Positions 4,157 through 15,936 of a DNA stretch of 39,034 nucleotides are shown here, one piece after another. The stretch covers positions 1 through 39,034 of the forward strand of contig VGTH01000050.1 in assembly GCA_016874755.1 (NCBI GenBank), written 5' to 3'. The stretch's first letter is position 1, and every line of letters starts with the position of its first letter. A program made the translations under genes and the position numbers. The notes beneath the pieces were generated by a model. It had not been told where the DNA came from. It saw only the letters and a list, made by a program, of their open reading frames with translations, and did not search any database. This DNA comes from Deltaproteobacteria bacterium (GTDB lineage: Bacteria; Desulfobacterota; Binatia; UBA9968).

Positions 4157-5266
4157 ATGCAACTCGAATGGCGTGGCCACTACCTTGACGGCAAAAGCGC
4201 TCAGCGCCGCGGTGCCGTCGTGCAGCTTCAAGCTTCGGGTCTAAGAATTACACTTGACGACGGCGCGCTGCTCGATTGGCCCTACGCTGAAATCAAACAA
4301 ACCCAGGGGGCCTACGCCGGCGAGCAGGTGCGACTCGAACGCGGCGGCGAATTTGCCGAGGCGCTGCTAATTCAAGATAGCGACTTCCTCGCGACACTGC
4401 ATCGGGTGGCGCCAAACCGAGCTGAGCGGTTCCACAATCCAGCCGATCGTCCCGCGCGTCTTCGCGCGACCATCGTCGCAGGGGTCGTGTCCATCGTCGC
4501 GCTGATTGCACTCTATCTCTACGGCGTGCCCGCGTTGGCCACCGCCGTGACCCCATTTGTGCCGGTTGCCTGGGAAGAGAAGCTCGGCGCGATGGTGATG
4601 GACCAGATGGTGCAACCGGAGAAGCAATGCAACGATCCGGTTCTGCGCAAAACAATCGACGAGATCGTTGCGAAGTTAACGGCCACAGTGCCCAACAGCC
4701 CTTACAAATTTCGCGTCTATTTAGTGAACGACCCCACGGTCAACGCTTTGGCAGCGCCAGGCGGATACATCGTGATTTTTCGCGGCTTGCTCGAAGCGAC
4801 CCGGCGACCCGAAGAGCTAGCCGGCGTGCTGGCGCACGAGCTGCAGCACGTGCTCAAGCGCCACTCTACCAAGTTGATCCTACAACATGTGTCGACGGGG
4901 GTATTGATGTCGGCGTTTTTCGGCGATGTCAGCGGTTTGGCTTCGTTTGGCTTGGAAGCGGCGCAGACCCTGGCCTTGCTGCGCTATAGCCGCGGCCACG
5001 AAAGCGAAGCCGACGCAGCAGGTCTAAAGATGCTCAACGCGGCGGGCATTGACGGGAGCGGCATCATATCGTTCTTTGAGATCTTGCAAGCCAAATCCGG
5101 CGGTGAGCCCGGTTTCTTGAAGTACGTCTCGAGTCATCCCGATACCCAAGACCGCATTGCCCGACTCAAATCGTTGGCAGATCAAACAGAGCAGGCGGCA
5201 GCAAGACCACTGCGTTATGATTGGGCCAATGTGAAAAAAATCTGCGCGGCTCGCAGCACTCGTTAG
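4157..5266 (+). CDS. membrane-anchored M48 family zinc metalloprotease
   Basis: The 369-residue protein has three parts. The first 85 residues or so form a small beta-rich domain (LEWRGHYLDGKSAQRRGAVV) like the N-terminal domain of some M48 proteases. A transmembrane helix follows at about residues 104-125. The rest is an M48 peptidase domain with H227-E228-x-x-H231 in AHELQHVLKRHS, and the third zinc ligand is probably E282 in HESEAD. The APGGYIVIFRGLLE segment before HExxH is also typical of the Oma1/BepA-like branch. With a single helix ahead of the catalytic domain, the protease probably faces the periplasm and acts in envelope protein quality control. It follows the DUF898 gene in the same direction and overlaps the 3' end of the convergent MBL gene by four bases. 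Confidence 0.88.
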   Translation: MQLEWRGHYLDGKSAQRRGAVVQLQASGLRITLDDGALLDWPYAEIKQTQGAYAGEQVRLERGGEFAEALLIQDSDFLATLHRVAPNRAERFHNPADRPARLRATIVAGVVSIVALIALYLYGVPALATAVTPFVPVAWEEKLGAMVMDQMVQPEKQCNDPVLRKTIDEIVAKLTATVPNSPYKFRVYLVNDPTVNALAAPGGYIVIFRGLLEATRRPEELAGVLAHELQHVLKRHSTKLILQHVSTGVLMSAFFGDVSGLASFGLEAAQTLALLRYSRGHESEADAAGLKMLNAAGIDGSGIISFFEILQAKSGGEPGFLKYVSSHPDTQDRIARLKSLADQTEQAAARPLRYDWANVKKICAARSTR

Positions 5267-6033
5267 AAGCGCAGAACCTCGTCGTCCTTTAGAACGTGCA
5301 GCTGTGGTCGCCTGAGTGCTTTGATCTCGGCGATGATCTCGCGGCGAAATTGCGGTTTCAAATGAGTGACATAAATTGGCGTTGCAGGGCGATTCAGCTT
5401 GTCGATTTCTCGCGCCAACATTGCCGGCGTTAAATGCCGGCTGGCCGCGGCGACGTCGCGCAATCGATTGGGAAAAGATGTCTCGATAACAACGCCTCCG
5501 AGGCTGTTCTGCTTCTTCGCCAGCGACCACACCTCACTTGTCGGTCCGGTGTCGCCGAGGTGCAGCAGCGTTTTAGTTTGGTTCTGTATGAAAAATGCGA
5601 CACTTGGAACGATGTGATGCACCGCCACAGGCGTAATCCGATAGTTACCCACGCGGGTCGCCCGCTTGATTGGAAGCACACGCAGCTGCAGTACCGGCTT
5701 GGTCTGACTCGGACCTTTGATCTTAGTAAAATCCGGCCAAATTCCGTCGTTGAAAAAATATTTTCGCAAACCTTCAACGATCGGTCGTGTGCCCCATATA
5801 TTGATGCTCGCCTTGCACTTGCCAAAAAGATTGTCAGCTAACGTGCCGAGCCCCATGACATGGTCGAGGTGGATATGGGTAACCAGGATGTTTTGGATTT
5901 TCAGTTGCGCCTGCCAGCTAAGCGCCCCGGTCACGCCGCCAGCGTCAATCAACAAAGTATCGTCAACGAGAAACGACGATAACCTGTGGCCAGGCAACTG
6001 GCCGCCCGAGCATCCCAATACGCGCAGTTTCAT
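5263..6033 (-). CDS. MBL-fold cyclic-nucleotide phosphodiesterase, class II (PDE1) type
   Basis: This 256-residue metallo-beta-lactamase-fold protein has the metal motif H53-x-H55-x-D57-H58 in VTHIHLDHVMGL. It opens with MKLRVLGCSGGQLPGHRLSSF and later has HLGDTGPTSEVW, VVIETSFPN and the HLTP...YVTHLKP block. That set fits the class II 3',5'-cyclic-nucleotide phosphodiesterase family (PDE1/CpdP) better than RNase Z or lactonase MBL families. The expected reaction is hydrolysis of cAMP or cGMP to the 5'-nucleotide in the cytoplasm. The divergent neighbour begins with a cyclic-nucleotide-binding domain, which supports this assignment. Activity is inferred, since MBL substrates are hard to predict from sequence. 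Confidence 0.75.
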   Translation of the reverse strand: MKLRVLGCSGGQLPGHRLSSFLVDDTLLIDAGGVTGALSWQAQLKIQNILVTHIHLDHVMGLGTLADNLFGKCKASINIWGTRPIVEGLRKYFFNDGIWPDFTKIKGPSQTKPVLQLRVLPIKRATRVGNYRITPVAVHHIVPSVAFFIQNQTKTLLHLGDTGPTSEVWSLAKKQNSLGGVVIETSFPNRLRDVAAASRHLTPAMLAREIDKLNRPATPIYVTHLKPQFRREIIAEIKALRRPQLHVLKDDEVLRF

Positions 6034-6156: not shown

Positions 6157-7533
6157 ATGGCTGATCCTGCAATTACGATTCGCAGCATTCCGCTCTTCTC
6201 TGCGCTTTCTCGCGAAGACATCGCCAAGGTGCTGGGCAAGCTGGAGGAAGTCTCCGTTCCATCGGGCGCGACCATCTTTTCTCAAGGCGACCAGGGAGAC
6301 GCGTTCTACGTTATTCAATCTGGCGCAGTGCAGGTCATCGTCGAAGCGGCGGCGGGGCGGAGAGAAGTCGTCGCCGTCCTGGGCGCACAAGATGGCTTCG
6401 GCGAGATGGCGCTCCTTTCCGGTGAACCGCGCTCGGCGTCCGTGGTCGCCATCGCCGACACCTCGCTCTGGCGTTTGAGTCGCGAGTCATGGAATGAGCT
6501 GATCGAGAAGCATCCGTCCTGGCTGCTCCATTTCTGCGCCACCATTAGCAAACGGCTGGCGCGCCTCGACGCGCAATATTCTTATGGGCGCGATGCTTAT
6601 CGGTCTTTGGCAGAAAACTATTACGCTTCCCGCACCAGGGAACATCAGCAGTTCCTGCGCCGCGCGGCGCTATTGGATTGGCTGGACGCGGAAACCGCAG
6701 GGAGCTTGCTCCGTGCCAACGATGCTGCCGGTTGTATCAGAGACCTGCAGACCAGCCAGCTGCCGCTCCTGCAAAGTGGCAGCGACCATCGGCTGGAGTT
6801 CCATCCGCTATTCGGCGAATTCTTGCGTGGCAGGCTCGCCGCCATCGAAGGTTCGGCGGGCGAGCGCGAGCTTCATGCGGATATCAGCGCCGGCTACGAG
6901 TCGTTAGCACAGTGGCCCCAAGCGATCGAACACGCGCTCGCCGGCGAGAATTGGCGCCGAGCACGAATGTTGCTGATCGAGCACTACGGCGGTGGCGCAG
7001 AAACCTCGGCAAATTTTGTTAAGACCGCCCTGGATCGGTTTCCAACGGGTTTTTTCCACGGCGACACCGCTTTGATTCAACTAAAGGCTGACGCAATGTT
7101 GGCCTTGGCCGATCCGCAAGGAGCCTATCGAGTCTATCAAGAAGCGCTGGCACACCAGCGTTCACACGTCGGCGTAGTTCAATATCAAAACATGGCCCGA
7201 GCTTTGTACGAGAGACGTGAGTACAACCAGGCCGTGCAGTGTTTGCGCAGCGCGCTCAAGATCCTCGAGCAGGACGTCGGCGAGCACCGTGGCCCGTCGC
7301 TGCTGCGCCAATCCGATGGCGAGCCAGGTGAAAGACCCTTCTCACGACAAAAAACGCGCTACAGCCCCGCGCTCCGCCTCCGGCGCATCGTCAGAAAACC
7401 CAGCCTCATTCGTTGGCTCGGCGGCATCGCTGGCGCCGCCATTTGGGCCTACTTTTGGTTCGGCACTCCCGCCATCGGTTTGGAACCTGCGGCGACAAAG
7501 CTGTTAGGGCTCGTCTGCTTGACACTCATCTAA
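6157..7533 (+). CDS. cyclic-nucleotide-binding / MalT-like winged-helix / TPR protein, N-terminal part of a split permease fusion
   Basis: Residues 10-130 or so are a CRP-type cyclic-nucleotide-binding domain. Its phosphate-binding cassette FGEMALLSGEPRSAS (G82, E83, R92, S95) looks competent to bind ligand. Residues of about 145-260 resemble the winged-helix part of MalT-type regulators (FLRRAALLDWLD, LPLLQSG, LEFHPLFGEFLRGRL, WPQAIEHALAGENWRRAR) but no NTPase domain precedes it. TPR-like helices follow to about 370, then a basic linker, then one transmembrane segment (IRWLGGIAGAAIWAYFWF) and the start of a second. The frame stops at TAA 7531-7533, inside that second hydrophobic segment, and continues in the same frame as an anion permease. 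I read this as the front part of a roughly 880-codon gene interrupted by a nonsense change. A stable soluble sensor made from this piece alone cannot be excluded. Confidence 0.7.
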   Translation: MADPAITIRSIPLFSALSREDIAKVLGKLEEVSVPSGATIFSQGDQGDAFYVIQSGAVQVIVEAAAGRREVVAVLGAQDGFGEMALLSGEPRSASVVAIADTSLWRLSRESWNELIEKHPSWLLHFCATISKRLARLDAQYSYGRDAYRSLAENYYASRTREHQQFLRRAALLDWLDAETAGSLLRANDAAGCIRDLQTSQLPLLQSGSDHRLEFHPLFGEFLRGRLAAIEGSAGERELHADISAGYESLAQWPQAIEHALAGENWRRARMLLIEHYGGGAETSANFVKTALDRFPTGFFHGDTALIQLKADAMLALADPQGAYRVYQEALAHQRSHVGVVQYQNMARALYERREYNQAVQCLRSALKILEQDVGEHRGPSLLRQSDGEPGERPFSRQKTRYSPALRLRRIVRKPSLIRWLGGIAGAAIWAYFWFGTPAIGLEPAATKLLGLVCLTLI

Positions 7534-7536
7534 TGG

Positions 7537-8804
7537 GTGTTTTGGGTGTTTCCCGATTACGGCGTGGCACTCATCTTTGCATTGGGATTGATTCTGAGCG
7601 GTCTGGCAAAACCGGACATCGTGCTCGGCGGCTTTGCCAGCAGCTCATGGTTTATGACGCTGGGGGTGCTTGGCCTCGGCGTCGCCATCACAAGCTGCGG
7701 TCTGTTCTACCGATTGTCCTTGCAACTCGTCAGAGTCTTTCCTTTGAACTACTACTGGCAAATCGTCGCTCTCGGGCTCATGGGGGGCGTGGTCATGGCG
7801 CTGATTCCGCAGCAAAGCGCGCGCACGGCCATCATTAGTCAAATGCTCATCAATCTTTCCGAAAGCCTCGGCTATAAGAACCCGTCAAAGGCTTCCACTG
7901 GCCATTTCGCTGCCAGTTTCTTGGGCCTTGGTCAGTTGGGTTTCTTGTTCCTCACCGGTTCGACAACGAGCCTCATCGCCTACGGCCTCTTGCCACCCGA
8001 GGTGCAGGCTCGCTTTACTTGGGGTTACTGGTTTATCGCGGCAGTGCCACCTACCCTCGTGGTTATTTTCATCATTCTTGCAGCCACCATGATTCAATAT
8101 CGGCCCGAGTCGCACGCTCGCGTTTCTTACAAGTTAGTCGAGACCCAACTCGGTGTCTTGGGTACCATGTCGAAGCATGAGTGCATCACTCTGTTGGTGC
8201 TGGTACTTACGATCGCCGGCTGGCTCACCGCCGGTTATCACAAGATCGATGGTGCGTGGATTTCCTTGTCGGCGTTTTGCGTTTTGATTGTCAGCGGTGT
8301 TCTAGAGAAAGGGTTAATCAAAAACGGCATCGACTGGGAAGTGCTCATCTACATGGGCGCGACCTTGTCGATTCCAACCCTATTAACACAAGCACGTATA
8401 GACAAATGGCTGGTCGCGGCAGTCTCGCCGCCGTGCTGCCCTTCGTCGATTGGCCGCTCATCTGCATTGTGGTGATCGCGCTGATCACCTACCTCGCAAA
8501 ACTGATATTCACCAGTTTCCTGAAGGTAGTTACAATGATGGTGACTTTCCTGCCGCTGGCGCCCGCCATCGGCGTCAGCCCGTGGGTCATGGCGATAATT
8601 ATTTTGATCGCTTCCGAGGTATGGTTCTTCCGCTCCCAAGTCGATTGGCACACGATGGCGACCGCAACCACCGATGGCAAAGGTGTTACCTATCCGTTGA
8701 TGGCGCGCATCAACCCAATCTACGCCATCGCCTATATCGTCGCGCTCATCGCCGCGATTCCCTATTGGCGCTACCTGGGGCTCATCTCTCAGCCGCCTCA
8801 ATGA
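7537..8804 (+). pseudogene. SLC13/DASS-type anion permease domain, separated by a stop and frameshifted
   Basis: Directly after the TAA the same frame resumes with WVFWVFPDYGVALIFALGLIL, a typical second helix of the SLC13/DASS (divalent anion:sodium symporter) fold. It continues through many hydrophobic helices to DKWLVAAVS near 8428. There the frame turns to nonsense (PPCCPSSIGRSSALW, stop at 8475). A second frame carries on the homologous sequence from AAVLPFVDWPLICIVVIALITYLAK to a natural end at 8804. Adding one base near 8421-8440 restores a single reading frame. Both SNT signatures usual for carboxylate-transporting DASS proteins are replaced (QQSARTA and FTSFLKV), so the substrate may be unusual. 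Either the gene is decayed or the sequence contains two errors. Confidence 0.7.
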
Positions 8805-11932: not shown

Positions 11933-14035
11933 CTAATTGCCGTAGAGAAACTCCGGCAGCCACAGCGTCATGCCGGGCCAGATGTACATGCAAATCAAAC
12001 AGAGCACGACGATCAACATGTACGGCATCATGCCGGCAAAAATCTGGTTGAGCGTAACATGGGGCGGCGAGACGCCTTTCAAATAAAAGGCCGACATCGC
12101 CACCGGCGGCGACAGAAATGCCGCTTGTAAGTTCACCGCGACCATCGTGCCAAACAGGATCGGATCGACGTTAAAGTGGGCTAAGAGCGGAATGAAAATC
12201 GGACAGAAGATGACGATAATCTCGGTCCATTCCAGTGGCCAGCCCAAAAGAAAAATAATCAACTGCGCAACGAAGAGAAAACCCAACGGCGAGAGATTCA
12301 TGCTCAGCACCCAGCGCTCGATCAAGCCCTGGCCGCCGTGCAGCGCGAAGACGCTGGAGAAAAGCGCCGAACCGATGAACAGCCAGCAGACCATCGCGGT
12401 AGTCTTCGCGGTGAGAAAGACCGCTTCGTTTAAGTTGCGGCGTAGGTCTTGTGATTTGCTCAGTCCCATCGCCCAAGGGATGACGGTGCCAAAAAAAGTC
12501 GCGCCGAGGGACGCCGACACGAGCAGCGGCACGAACTCACCGCGGCGCAAGCCCAGCGCAATGCCGACGATTGCGCCGAGTAAACTCCACCACGCCACCG
12601 GCCGGGGAAATTTTGCCATCGCCGCCAAGTAAAGCGCGCCCAATGCGCCGATGGCCGCCGACTCGGTGGCGGTGGTTATGCCGAACAAAATCACCGCAAG
12701 AACGATGATCGTAAGCACGCCGAGGGGAACGACCGAAGCAACCAGCTCGCGGAGAATCTCGAACTGCTCGCCGTCCATGCGCCAGTAATAATAGGTCAGC
12801 AACAATCCGAACAGTGCCGCAAAGGCCCAAAACCAACTATAGAAGTTCGCGGGAATTTTGCTCGTCGCAGCGGCGGCTGGCTCAGCAACCGAAGTCATCT
12901 CGCGCGGCGGCCCTTCGGACGGCGGCGCGGGAGCGATCTCCACCGGGCTGCCGGCGGCGCCGAGCTCCTGGGGTTTCTCGTCGGCTGGCACCGTAGATTT
13001 CTCAGCCGCTTGGCCCAGCTCCACGGGCTTCTCCGCCACGGCGCCAAGCTCCTGGGGCGCTGCTTCTGCAGCGGGCGCGGGCGCGGCCACGCCTGCCTGC
13101 TCCTGTAGCGGCTTTGCCGTGCTGACGGTTGCCGGCGCGTTGTAAATCACGACGTACCACCAGGTCATGGCCAAAGTGCCGGCGCTAAGCGCCAGCGGCA
13201 CCATCAAAGTGAGCACCGTATTGACGACGAAACCGTAGCCGATGGGCTTGCCGCCCGCGGTCTTCGCGCCGCGCAACAGACTCGGTCGAAAGAAAGCGCC
13301 GAGCAGGCCACCGAACACACGCTTTGCCGGCCCGCGCTCGAGCCGCTGCAGCCAATCGGGAACGTTCAAGCGATACTGGTCCTCGGAAAGCTTGGGCGCG
13401 ATTTTCGGATTGATGATCGCCCAGCCGAGAATGTAGACGAGATATAAAAAAGTCAGAAAGAAACCCGGCAGCATCGCCGCAGCGTACAGTTTAACGATCG
13501 ACTGACCGGCCACCGCGGCATAGACGATCAACATGACCGACGGCGGAATCAGAATCCCCAGCGTGCCACCTGCGGTGATCGCGCCGGAAGCGAGCCGGAC
13601 ATCGTAGCCGGCGTTGAGCATGGGGCGCATGGCGATGACGCCCATCAACACGACCACGGCGCCGACGATGCCCGACGCGATGCCCCAAAAAGCGCATACG
13701 AGTAATGTCGTCACCGCCAGCGACGCCGGCACGCGGCGAAACGCCAACTGCACAGCGTGAAACATGCGGTCGACCAGCGCCGCGCGCTCCATGACGTAGC
13801 CCATGAAGACAAACAACGGCACGGATAATAAAGTATCGTTAACCATCACGCCGTAGGTGCGCTGCACCATGAGGTCGAAAATGCGATTCTGCCACCAGTG
13901 CTGTGTCGGATCCCAAAAGGCCACGGCACCAAACAGCATGCCGACGCCCATGAGCGTAAACGCCGTCGGAAAGCCCATCATGATCGCCGCCACGATGAGC
14001 CCGAGCATAATCAAGCCGAGTACCGGGTCGCTCAT
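11933..14035 (-). CDS. dctM: TRAP transporter large permease DctM, with a large central insertion
   Basis: This is the ion-coupled large membrane subunit of a tripartite ATP-independent periplasmic (TRAP) transporter. Family landmarks in the first half include VPLFVFMGYVMERA, ASGIVGAVVVLMGVIAM and GGTLGILIPPSVMLIVYA. In the second half they include FGITTATESAAIGALGALY and LGWPLEWTEIIVIFCPIFIPL. The protein has 700 residues, where DctM proteins are often near 430. The extra length lies between the two halves, at about residues 215-430. It comprises two additional hydrophobic segments (about 268-298 and 398-417) joined by a Pro/Ala/Glu-rich linker with repeated A-E-K-P-x-E-L-G motifs. Its ATG overlaps the dctQ stop (ATGA), so translation is coupled. 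Longer DctM forms are known in the mannitol/chloroaromatic-type TRAP group. Confidence 0.92.
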   Translation of the reverse strand: MSDPVLGLIMLGLIVAAIMMGFPTAFTLMGVGMLFGAVAFWDPTQHWWQNRIFDLMVQRTYGVMVNDTLLSVPLFVFMGYVMERAALVDRMFHAVQLAFRRVPASLAVTTLLVCAFWGIASGIVGAVVVLMGVIAMRPMLNAGYDVRLASGAITAGGTLGILIPPSVMLIVYAAVAGQSIVKLYAAAMLPGFFLTFLYLVYILGWAIINPKIAPKLSEDQYRLNVPDWLQRLERGPAKRVFGGLLGAFFRPSLLRGAKTAGGKPIGYGFVVNTVLTLMVPLALSAGTLAMTWWYVVIYNAPATVSTAKPLQEQAGVAAPAPAAEAAPQELGAVAEKPVELGQAAEKSTVPADEKPQELGAAGSPVEIAPAPPSEGPPREMTSVAEPAAAATSKIPANFYSWFWAFAALFGLLLTYYYWRMDGEQFEILRELVASVVPLGVLTIIVLAVILFGITTATESAAIGALGALYLAAMAKFPRPVAWWSLLGAIVGIALGLRRGEFVPLLVSASLGATFFGTVIPWAMGLSKSQDLRRNLNEAVFLTAKTTAMVCWLFIGSALFSSVFALHGGQGLIERWVLSMNLSPLGFLFVAQLIIFLLGWPLEWTEIIVIFCPIFIPLLAHFNVDPILFGTMVAVNLQAAFLSPPVAMSAFYLKGVSPPHVTLNQIFAGMMPYMLIVVLCLICMYIWPGMTLWLPEFLYGN
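12850..13138 (-). repeat. Pro/Ala/Glu-rich repeat linker coding segment within dctM
   Basis: Codons for about residues 300-395 of DctM encode a low-complexity linker in which short motifs recur: APQELGAVAEKPVELGQAAE, then EKPQELGAAGSPVEI. It has no hydrophobic helix and separates two predicted membrane segments, so it should form a flexible extramembrane loop. Confidence 0.6.
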
Positions 14036-14718
14036 GGCTTTTTCTGCTCCTTGATGTCTGTCACAGTAACGGCACTGCGATGGCGCGCCGCTTCGTCGAT
14101 GGCGTGGGCCGATTTCAGCGTCGCTTGGCGCGATTCTTCATCGATAAACTCGCTCTGCGAAAGCTGCGTCTCTATAACGTCGATCTCTTCGACGTCGTGC
14201 AGCCGCGCCGGCCACGCGCCGGTCTTGAGACAAACAAAGCAGCGCAGAATTTCAGCGAGGCCCTGCAGCATCACCAGTGCGCCGGCGATGGGAATGAAAG
14301 TTTTGAAGTGATACACCGGCGGACCCGCCGCGGTGACGGTGGAATGTTCACCGATGCGCCAGGACTCAGCGGCGTAGCCGTAGCCGGCGTAGGCCAATGC
14401 GAGAATTCCCGGCAGAAAAAACAGCAAGTAAAGAATCAAATCGAGCAGCGCCTGGGAGCGCGGCTTTAAGTAGATGTAAACGAAATCGGCGCGCACGTGG
14501 CCGGCCAAGGCCAGCGTGTAGGCGCCGCACATCATGAACAACGTGCCGTAGAGCATGTTGTTCAAATCAAAAATCCACGCCGTCGGCGCATTTAAGATGT
14601 AGCGCTTGAAGACTTCGACGGAGACCACGAAGGTCAAAACCACGATCAGCCAGGCGAATAACTTGCCGATCCAGTAGCTGATGCGGTCCGCCGTTCGGAT
14701 GAGAGCGAGTGCATTCAT
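14032..14718 (-). CDS. dctQ: TRAP transporter small permease DctQ
   Basis: This is the small membrane subunit that pairs with DctM. Four hydrophobic helices are visible, with the DctQ landmarks VSVEVFKRYILNAPTAWIFDLNNMLYGTLFMMCGAYTLALAGHVRADF. The open frame reaches back to a TTG at 14748, but that codon lies inside a terminator-like hairpin. The ATG at 14718 (MNALALIRTADR) is therefore preferred, giving 228 residues. No clear Shine-Dalgarno precedes it. A hydrophilic C-terminal tail of about 60 residues, rich in Glu, Asp and Arg, follows the last helix. The stop overlaps the dctM start. Confidence 0.9.
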   Translation of the reverse strand: MNALALIRTADRISYWIGKLFAWLIVVLTFVVSVEVFKRYILNAPTAWIFDLNNMLYGTLFMMCGAYTLALAGHVRADFVYIYLKPRSQALLDLILYLLFFLPGILALAYAGYGYAAESWRIGEHSTVTAAGPPVYHFKTFIPIAGALVMLQGLAEILRCFVCLKTGAWPARLHDVEEIDVIETQLSQSEFIDEESRQATLKSAHAIDEAARHRSAVTVTDIKEQKKP

Positions 14719-14719
14719 A

Positions 14720-14769
14720 GACAAACAAAGACGCCAGCCATCCGGCAAATACCGGTTGGCTGGCGTCTT
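14720..14769 (-). terminator. strong hairpin with U-rich tail between dctP and dctQ (partial terminator/attenuator)
   Basis: The arms AAGACGCCAGCCA (14728-14740) and TGGCTGGCGTCTT (14757-14769) are exact complements. A further CCGG pairing closes a short loop. On the minus strand the stem is followed by TGTTTGTC at 14720-14727, a T-rich but imperfect tail. It lies after the dctP stop and just before the dctQ start. Such a leaky terminator or mRNA-stabilising stem would give more binding protein than permease. Confidence 0.75.
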
Positions 14770-14790
14770 CTCTAAGACCGAAGAACGAGC

Positions 14791-15936
14791 CTAGCCTTTC
14801 CTAGCACCGAAATAATGGTTGTAGGCCATGCGGCGGTCGACGACGGTGTCCAGCTCCCACTTCACCGCGCGCTGCGCAAAGGCGCGCTGCGAGTCGGCGA
14901 TCTCTTTGAACAATGGATTATCCGCAGCCTTCTTCGCCGCCGCCGCGTCATAGGCAGCCAGTTGCTGGCGCAGCACACCGGCCGGCGTCTGGTAAAAACG
15001 CACTTTGTCCTTGGTCTGCATCTCGATGTAGTCTTTGGAATAGCGATCGATGGCCTTCCAGGACATCTCCGCCGATGCCGCCTCGACGGCGTTTTCGATG
15101 ATCGATTTCATCTTCGCCGGCAGCGCGTCGTACTTGCCCTTGTTGAACATGATCTCAAACTGCTCGGCGTTCTGATGGTAGCTCTGCAGCATGCAGACTT
15201 TGGAAACATCGGGGAAGCCGAGCATCCGGTCGGAAGAGGCATTGTTAAATTCCGCGGCGTCGAGCAGACCGCGATCCATCGCCGGCACGATCTCACCGCC
15301 CGGCAATGCGTTGACCGCCGCGCCCATACCGGTGAACACGTCGGTGGAAATGCCGACGGTGCGGAACTTGAGTCCTTTAAAATCATCCGGCTTGGTGATC
15401 GGCTTCTTGAACCAGCCCAAGGGCTGGGTCGGCATCGGTCCATAGGGTAACGACACCACGTTCATGCCGATGGAGTTGTAAAGCTTGTTGAGCAACTCAC
15501 GCCCGCCGCCGTAACGATGCCAGGAGAGCAGCATGTTGGCGTCCATGCCGTAGGCGGGGCCGGAGCCCCACAGCGCCAGCGCCGCCTGTTTGCCGTAGTG
15601 ATAAACCAACACACCGTGGCCGCCATCCAGCGTGCCTTTAGACACCGCTTCGAGCAAACCGAAGGCAGGCACCACCGCGCCGGCCGGCAGCACTTCGATC
15701 TTCAAATCGCCGCCGGTCATGTCATTGACCTTCTTGGCGAAGTCCTGGGCGAACTCATGAAAGATGTCTTTCGCGGGCCAGGTGCTTTGCCAACGCATCG
15801 ATGTCGCGCCCTGCGCCTTGACGATGTTGGGAAAACCAAGTACCGCGGCTCCGCCCGCCACCACGGCGCCCTTGAGAATACTGCGCCGCGAAAGCTTACT
15901 TGCCTGCGGCTCCTGCTTCTTTGCTTCTTCAGCCAT
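14791..15936 (-). CDS. dctP: TRAP transporter periplasmic substrate-binding protein DctP, Tat-exported
   Basis: This is the solute receptor of the TRAP system. Residues 16-22 (SRRSILK) are a twin-arginine motif followed by a hydrophobic segment, with likely cleavage near residue 42 (VKAQ/GATS). The mature part shows DctP landmarks: AQDFAKKVNDMTGGDLKIEV, LEAVSKGTLDGGHG, DDFKGLKFRTVGISTDVFTGMGAAVNALPGGEIVPAMDRG and DAAEFNNASSD. The pattern resembles the TakP-like / mannitol-chloroaromatic branch, whose known ligands are organic acids such as 2-oxo acids; the actual ligand is unknown. An AGGAGG-type ribosome site lies eight bases before the ATG, and a strong promoter lies about 40 bases upstream. 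It is the first gene of the dctP-dctQ-dctM-amidase operon. Confidence 0.93.
   Translation of the reverse strand: MAEEAKKQEPQASKLSRRSILKGAVVAGGAAVLGFPNIVKAQGATSMRWQSTWPAKDIFHEFAQDFAKKVNDMTGGDLKIEVLPAGAVVPAFGLLEAVSKGTLDGGHGVLVYHYGKQAALALWGSGPAYGMDANMLLSWHRYGGGRELLNKLYNSIGMNVVSLPYGPMPTQPLGWFKKPITKPDDFKGLKFRTVGISTDVFTGMGAAVNALPGGEIVPAMDRGLLDAAEFNNASSDRMLGFPDVSKVCMLQSYHQNAEQFEIMFNKGKYDALPAKMKSIIENAVEAASAEMSWKAIDRYSKDYIEMQTKDKVRFYQTPAGVLRQQLAAYDAAAAKKAADNPLFKEIADSQRAFAQRAVKWELDTVVDRRMAYNHYFGARKG

Follow-up and report, generated by a model that had tools for sequence, protein, structure and literature searches.

A Bacterial Gene Family Joining a Cyclic-Nucleotide-Binding Domain and a MalT-like Module to a DASS-type Permease: Candidate Cyclic-Nucleotide-Gated Carriers

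Carriers with attached ligand-sensing domains

Gating by a second messenger is known, or has been proposed, for only a few carriers. It has been shown for SLC9C1, the sperm Na+/H+ exchanger, which contains a cyclic-nucleotide-binding (CNB) domain and a voltage sensor and whose activation is shifted by cyclic AMP (cAMP; PMC6052114). Control by cAMP has been proposed for the NTT-HEAT and NTT-HEAT-cNBD nucleotide carriers of bacteria and oomycetes, none of which is characterized in the passages of PMC5381601 consulted. Here we analyze a gene located on the forward strand at positions 6157–8804 of a 39,034-nucleotide stretch (the window) from a Deltaproteobacteria bacterium of the class Binatia (contig VGTH01000050.1, assembly GCA_016874755.1). 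It is a damaged copy, interrupted by an internal stop and a frameshift, of a fusion in which a CNB domain, a MalT-like winged helix and arm, TPR helices and a DASS/SLC13-type permease follow one another. The same genome (G000, 5.56 Mb) encodes on contig C18 an intact paralog of 878 residues in a single open reading frame (ORF), designated P0004. We regard it as fairly probable that the family consists of carriers controlled by a cyclic nucleotide through the CNB domain and the MalT-type module, that is, of cyclic-nucleotide-gated DASS exchangers.

The fusion resembles the NTT-HEAT-cNBD carriers in combining a CNB domain with helical repeats and a secondary carrier; in those systems the three parts are found in one protein, or the CNB domain is encoded by the next gene (PMC5381601). 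It differs from them in the type of its parts and in their order: an NTT carrier, HEAT repeats and the order carrier-HEAT-CNB there, a DASS carrier, a MalT/STAND module and the order CNB-winged helix-TPR-carrier here; a Pfam scan of P0004 at E values up to 1 returned no NTT domain. SLC9C1 likewise has its CNB domain covalently linked to a secondary carrier, but this is an SLC9 carrier of animal sperm equipped with a voltage sensor (PMC6052114); the present proteins are bacterial, begin with the CNB domain, contain the MalT-like module and have a carrier that is DASS by sequence and fold, and the same scan of P0004 gave no voltage-sensor match. In their classification of 30 CNB families, Kannan et al. 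list as partners channels, kinases, CBS, AAA (some with an ABC-transporter-like region) and helix-turn-helix (HTH) domains, among others, and no DASS carrier is named among the partners in the passages of PMC2246266 consulted. An earlier note on this DNA, made from the sequence alone, did not recognize the combination as a described family. No description of a CNB-MalT-DASS combination was found among the literature matches listed, most subscription papers lying outside their scope; the joining of a carrier, a helical repeat and a CNB domain was, however, already on record for the NTT-HEAT-cNBD proteins. Carriers with a covalent CNB sensor are already known, and what is unusual here is the MalT/STAND coupling module together with a DASS carrier.

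A further comparison is offered by yeast Pho90, which is among the fold matches of the P0004 permease. Pho90-type yeast carriers bear an N-terminal SPX fusion that senses inositol phosphates, and thus share with the present proteins a DASS-fold carrier provided with a cytosolic N-terminal ligand-sensing domain; that domain is SPX instead of CNB, and Pho90-type carriers are not known to have a winged helix.

A single-gene fusion with a conserved domain order

Among the 25 genomes of the family, 24 contain a match to P0004 at E values up to 0.001, several of them by the CNB part alone, and 11 encode a full-length ORF without an internal stop (G000, G004, G006, G007, G013, G014, G015, G016, G017, G019 and G024). 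Since P0004 is intact in the same genome and these full-length copies are intact in so many others, a chance fusion or an assembly join is ruled out as the origin of the window gene. Besides the window, lesioned copies are present at G011:C11 (frameshift), in G012 (TGA at codon 407) and in G009 (TAG at codon 817); the copies in G010 and at G011:C14 are cut by contig ends, G020, G022 and G024 contain partial pieces, and G015 carries an additional broken copy (L066) with a permease 36 percent identical and the middle part present. In the class as a whole, 27 of 148 genomes match at E values up to 1e-25, 17 of these being members of the family. Outside it, eight genomes from three other families of the class encode an intact single-ORF cousin of about 800 residues with 32 to 36 percent identity (clade 2), in which the CNB domain, the winged helix and the DASS permease are present with little TPR; in a further genome of the class, G480, the cousin is split over two frames. 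Full-length homologs with the same domain order, which the earlier note had proposed to look for, thus exist as single ORFs both in the family (11) and beyond it (8).

In a sample of the phylum, where few candidates were scored per genome, 6 of 395 genomes match at E values up to 1e-50, namely G000 itself, one CNB-DASS protein (L047, in G225) and four shorter permease ORFs, one of which was read and showed no CNB domain. L047, L067 and L068 resemble the fusion in joining a CNB domain and then a DASS permease in one ORF (651 to 677 residues); they differ in giving no winged-helix or TPR match, and thus in having no MalT module, and in a permease identity of about 30 percent. Beyond the phylum, the search covered plasmid records and one genome-contig scan (12 loci, all on contigs as long as contigs of the family genomes); none of the 745 plasmid records with a match covered 80 percent of the query, the 20 matches listed being single-part, and one of them, H17 from Methylobacterium, looked by eye like a CNB plus patatin-like protein.

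The CNB domain of the window gene lies at 6250–6513 (PF00027, residues 32–119, E 4.2e-25). Its phosphate-binding cassette, FGEMALLSGEPRSAS at 6397–6441, conforms to the bacterial consensus given in Table 1 of PMC2246266. The CRP-type ligand domain with an intact cassette that had been read from the sequence alone is therefore borne out, PF00027 and the canonical cassette being found together. Moreover, all 11 intact family members match both PF00027 and PF00939, and the FGE and the Arg of the cassette are kept in all 15 full-length family copies (clade 1) that were compared.

The region that follows, at 6607–7146, is a MalT-like winged helix and arm without the nucleoside triphosphatase (NTPase). 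Residues 151–330 of the window gene product match residues 255–435 of MalT in the NCBIfam model NF003420 with an E value of 2.4e-11, a score far under the model's cut-off for a whole MalT; the same model matches 10 of the 11 intact family members (best E 2.9e-17) and all eight clade 2 cousins (best 8.9e-16), and the two clades have homologous middle regions (hhalign 99.0, E 2.2e-18). A model of the equivalent part of P0004, built with 23 sequences, had a mean predicted local distance difference test (pLDDT) score of 90.8 and consists of helices, a two-stranded wing and then helical hairpins. When this model was compared with known structures, Foldseek placed MalT (8bob_C) first, as the sole match with an E value under 0.001 (1.5e-4), and 6mfv, a STAND protein with a TPR sensor, second (3e-3). 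Furthermore, VIA-align superposed 145 residues on MalT 8bob_C 253–408 with a Z score of 15.5 and a root-mean-square deviation of 2.6, ahead of 6mfv (Z 10.2), Apaf-1 (10.1) and CED-4 (8.5). A predicted structure lacking a MalT-like winged helix, which would have spoken against the earlier description, was thus not obtained; MalT is the best match of the model. In MalT this type of winged helix and arm is the domain named DT2, and the stretch at 6607–7146 may be called DT2-like.

Searched with phmmer against the PDB sequences, the middle part gave four weak matches, none of them MalT; in sequence, P0004 149–310 matches MalT 253–415. The protein differs from MalT in that the part in front is a CNB domain and not the NTPase, a LuxR-type HTH is absent from the rear, and a membrane carrier is attached: the Pfam scan of P0004 at E values up to 1 found neither an NTPase (NOD) nor a LuxR-type HTH, the CNB domain and the permease occupying these places. 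The winged HTH of CRP itself, considered as a source of the middle winged helix, is unsupported, given that MalT comes first and STAND proteins next; no CRP stood among the best 50 matches listed, which in itself excludes nothing. The TPR helices, at approximately 6994–7287, are real according to the middle-part model of the paralog together with the Pfam TPR matches, the latter being under their cut-offs in the window protein.

The permease extends from about 7390 to 8801, spanning the stop and the frameshift, and matches PF00939 with an E value of 9e-26 on the stretch from 7534. P0004 scores 110.5 bits against PF00939, for a curated cut-off of 27, and this model matches all 11 intact members at E values up to 0.5 (best 1.1e-37); on TIGR00785 (NCBIfam) P0004 stays at 120.9 bits, below the cut-off of 198.6 (locus L082, 143.4), and on PF06808, the DctM part of TRAP carriers, at 19.7, under the cut-off of 23.8. 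The best sequence matches are LaINDY and the chloroplast exchanger DiT1, and the predicted fold matches DiT2.1, DiT1, LaINDY and VcINDY along the length of the permease. The two Ser-Asn-Thr (SNT) motifs, which bind substrate and contribute to the Na+ sites, do not occur in their usual form. In clade 1 the first position reads Q-Q-(S/T), with Q-K-S in one copy, followed by A-R, and the second reads S-(F/G/R)-L; in the window these are QQS (7810–7818) followed by A and R (QQSAR, 7810–7824), and SFL (8514–8522). The earlier note had taken a DASS permease with both signatures replaced from the sequence; the permease stands, and the replacement holds for two of the three residues in each motif and fails for the third, because the third residue of the first motif and the Ser of the second are still S/T-like.

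Both Na+ sites appear to be occupied by basic residues. In an alignment with LaINDY and DiT1, P0004 R556 aligns with LaINDY Arg159 and K782 with His392 (LaINDY numbering with a construct offset of 28 counted by hand); in the window the corresponding codons are Arg 7822–7824 and Lys 8499–8501, the latter followed by LIFTSFL (8499–8522). According to Sauer et al. (PMC7553777), Arg159 and His392 of LaINDY lie at the Na1 and Na2 sites; exchangers conserve these two residues, and cotransporters lack them. Basic residues were found at both surrogate positions in 15 of 15 full-length clade 1 copies, the window included, with Lys in place of His; clade 2 has one of the two. Because the two Na+ sites carry Arg and Lys, the clade 1 permease is predicted to be exchanger-like and to perform Na+-independent exchange. 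The family thus shares with LaINDY, DiT1 and DiT2.1, its best sequence and fold matches, the basic Na1 and Na2 positions, and differs from them in the QQ(S/T) and S(F/G/R)L motifs, the Lys for His and the fused CNB, winged-helix and TPR parts. With basic residues replacing the Na+ sites, the charge-compensation idea put forward for DASS exchangers could be tested directly.

Gene neighborhood and the case for cyclic-nucleotide control

Neighbor counts cover the 15 genomes of the family that contain a long copy, the partial pieces of G020 and G022 being left out. A simple ORF caller missed some opposite-strand genes, such as the binding-protein gene of L062, and neighbor calls were therefore backed by tblastn. 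A PF04392 binding-protein gene lies directly upstream on the same strand, within about 140 nucleotides, in 14 of the 15 genomes; in G009 only the last part of this gene is on the contig, and in G024 a different gene stands at that place. Since PF04392 proteins are frequent in these 15 genomes (from 4 to 83 in each, in places in runs, e.g. at G017:C13), the argument rests on clade and position and not on mere presence: the 13 adjacent proteins tested group together in a single clade (support 100/100), separate from seven other PF04392 proteins of the same loci. The six adjacent proteins scanned are PF04392 and not of the TRAP-type DctP kind.

A class III cyclase gene is found within 5 kb of the fusion gene in 11 of the 15 genomes, against 0.34 expected under a random-placement model with 3 to 16 cyclases per genome; the nominal probability of 6e-16 is not to be taken literally, because the genomes are related. 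In the nine loci scanned the cyclases are of the response-regulator-cyclase and CHASE2-cyclase types and lie on either side of the fusion gene. Furthermore, PF02112, the class II phosphodiesterase family, is represented once per genome in 9 of the 15 genomes, and in three of these nine (the window genome, G012 and G015) the gene lies within 2 kb of the fusion gene. In the window it occupies 5263–6033 on the reverse strand (PDEase_II, E 5e-16), divergent from the fusion gene at a distance of 124 bp, a neighbor that the earlier note did not mention, and it is the sole PF02112 match in G000.

On the basis of these data, the following mechanism can be proposed. A class III cyclase of the response-regulator or CHASE2 type, often encoded nearby, would make cAMP or cyclic GMP, which a class II phosphodiesterase would remove. 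The cyclic nucleotide would bind the N-terminal CNB domain in the cytoplasm, and the post-CNB helix, running into the MalT-type winged helix and TPR arm, would relay the change to the elevator-type DASS permease, where it may either open or lock the exchange of an anionic substrate. This substrate may be delivered by, or sensed with, the dedicated periplasmic binding protein. Control by a cyclic nucleotide is supported because cyclase and phosphodiesterase genes accompany the family. The proposal of the earlier note, a transporter directly controlled by a cyclic nucleotide, thus gains from the gene context of the family and is qualified at three points: the altered SNT motifs would also suit a sensor, the window copy is probably non-functional, and carriers linked to a CNB domain through a helical repeat are on record in another carrier family. 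More tentatively, the protein may be a STAND-type switch rebuilt on a carrier, with the CNB domain replacing the NTPase and a DASS exchanger as effector, which with its own binding protein, cyclase and phosphodiesterase would constitute a self-contained, second-messenger-gated and binding-protein-dependent form of secondary transport. If the mechanism holds, the covalent CNB domain, adjacent cyclase and MalT/STAND coupling would provide a tractable system for the gating of an elevator carrier, and would inform the role of the STAND winged helix without its NTPase and the use of cyclic nucleotides in an uncultured lineage.

Several observations weigh against cyclic-nucleotide control. G017 has no cyclase near the fusion gene, and in G009 and G011, each truncated on one side by a contig end, none is present on the side that can be seen; the fourth genome without a nearby cyclase is G024, whose contig measures 4.3 kb. 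PF02112 was not found in 6 of the 15 genomes and is sited elsewhere in six of the nine that have it. The nine stretches read for clade 2, which comprises eight intact copies and a split one, showed no marker for a cyclase, a binding protein or a phosphodiesterase; tblastn with seven neighbor proteins over these stretches of 8.6 to 18 kb gave nothing except receiver-domain matches in L084, to which blastp adds one in L083. Clade 2 also has no basic residue at the Arg159 position in any of its eight members, all of which have Arg at the second site. The two second-copy loci, the window and L065, have no binding-protein or cyclase neighbors, the window having the phosphodiesterase only and L065 none of the three. 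Effectors other than the fusion protein may be the targets of the neighboring cyclases, and the neighbor counts are inflated by shared descent. Finally, the full-length model of P0004 is weak (mean pLDDT 64), with a CNB part of poor confidence, much of it under 50.

The alteration of two of three residues in each SNT substrate motif could point to a sensor role. The DASS part could be a non-transporting transceptor which detects an external ligand together with its binding protein and relays the signal inward by way of the TPR and the winged helix, while the CNB domain adjusts the sensitivity. A binding protein of its own clade, the STAND-like scaffold module and the nearby response-regulator cyclases would all suit such a receptor. 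We nevertheless consider it unlikely: the permease is the best conserved part of the protein, with a mean column identity of 81 percent (A5) versus 59 percent in the middle part (A2), it keeps the cationic surrogate residues, its predicted fold follows DASS carriers along its length, and the Pfam scan of P0004 at E values up to 1 revealed neither an HTH nor a kinase nor any other output domain. A constitutive DASS-type carrier, in which the CNB domain, winged helix and TPR are insensitive to cyclic nucleotides and serve only for anchoring or assembly, seems improbable. Clade 2 retains the CNB domain and winged helix without a cyclase neighbor, and CNB-fold domains with other cassettes respond to other signals (PMC2246266); against this stand the canonical Glu and Arg of the cassette in every full-length clade 1 copy and the cyclase and phosphodiesterase neighbors.

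State of the window copy and other genes of the loci

The first ORF of the window gene (6157–7533, + strand, 458 residues) contains the CNB domain, the winged helix and arm, the TPR helices and the start of the permease, and ends at an in-frame TAA (7531–7533). Its frame stays readable from 7534 to about 8433, and the remainder of the permease continues in another frame to 8804; the frameshift is placed at 8430–8442 by two tblastn segments, 6169–8442 in frame 1 and 8433–8789 in frame 3. One gene bridging one stop and one frameshift, as first proposed from the letters, is thus what the intact paralog also indicates. The window copy lacks 6.9 percent of the residues that are invariant across the 11 intact copies, which themselves, each compared with the other ten, have lost 0.8 to 7.8 percent. 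Because invariants are kept about as well as in intact copies, the damage is recent or a sequence error, and the likeliest reading of the sequence is that the window holds a second, damaged paralog, recently disabled or misread, and is itself probably not functional; its status as a second copy is also an addition to the earlier note. In the tree, which does not fix its exact place, it falls outside the clade of the first copies of the genus. A similar second copy, L065, is found in another genome of the same genus, broken at a different place; it shares HemN-like, DUF898 and M48 neighbors with the window (assigned by Pfam in the window and by likeness of gene starts in L065), is 57 percent identical to the window copy and is not joined to it by the tree.

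Separate genes for the CNB-TPR part and the permease were not found in relatives, save for the G012 copy (L053), in which a TGA at codon 407 (about position 8886 of L053) falls in the poorly conserved linker between the TPR/regulator part and the permease, with 0 of 261 invariant residues lost, and which represents either a natural split or a sequence error. That the stop and frameshift of the window are likewise natural splits, yielding a separate permease and a soluble protein made of CNB domain, winged helix and TPR, is very improbable in spite of L053 and the well-kept invariants of the window copy, given that the window stop lies within the second predicted permease helix (444–461 in the model of the paralog) with the frameshift after it, that 19 relatives are intact single ORFs and that L065, a comparable second copy, is broken elsewhere.

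Other genes of these loci were also noted. A metallo-beta-lactamase-fold gene (PF12706, with the start FWGVRGSYP) adjoins the binding-protein gene at L054:2298–3224, L058:6388–7314 and L064:2973–3941; as a guess, it may encode a second kind of cyclic-nucleotide phosphodiesterase. At G006:C3:49173–50454, away from the fusion gene, a PF02112 match and a class III cyclase match are about 240 bp apart and form another cyclic-nucleotide pair. A weak PF04392-like match, 25 percent identical to the marker, is located about 4.3 kb downstream in L090, the wider stretch of L047. Beside P0004 on contig C18, fragments of a response regulator-sigma54 activator and of a response regulator-cyclase overlap in different frames (L004:5484–7081, - strand), an arrangement that could stem from insertion of one gene into another, from recombination between them or from misassembly. 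In the window, a TRAP set comprising a DctM-type protein of 700 residues, DctQ and DctP (11933–15936, - strand) lies about 3.1 kb downstream of the fusion gene, from which it is separated by a lipoyl ligase gene, one further gene and an amidase gene.

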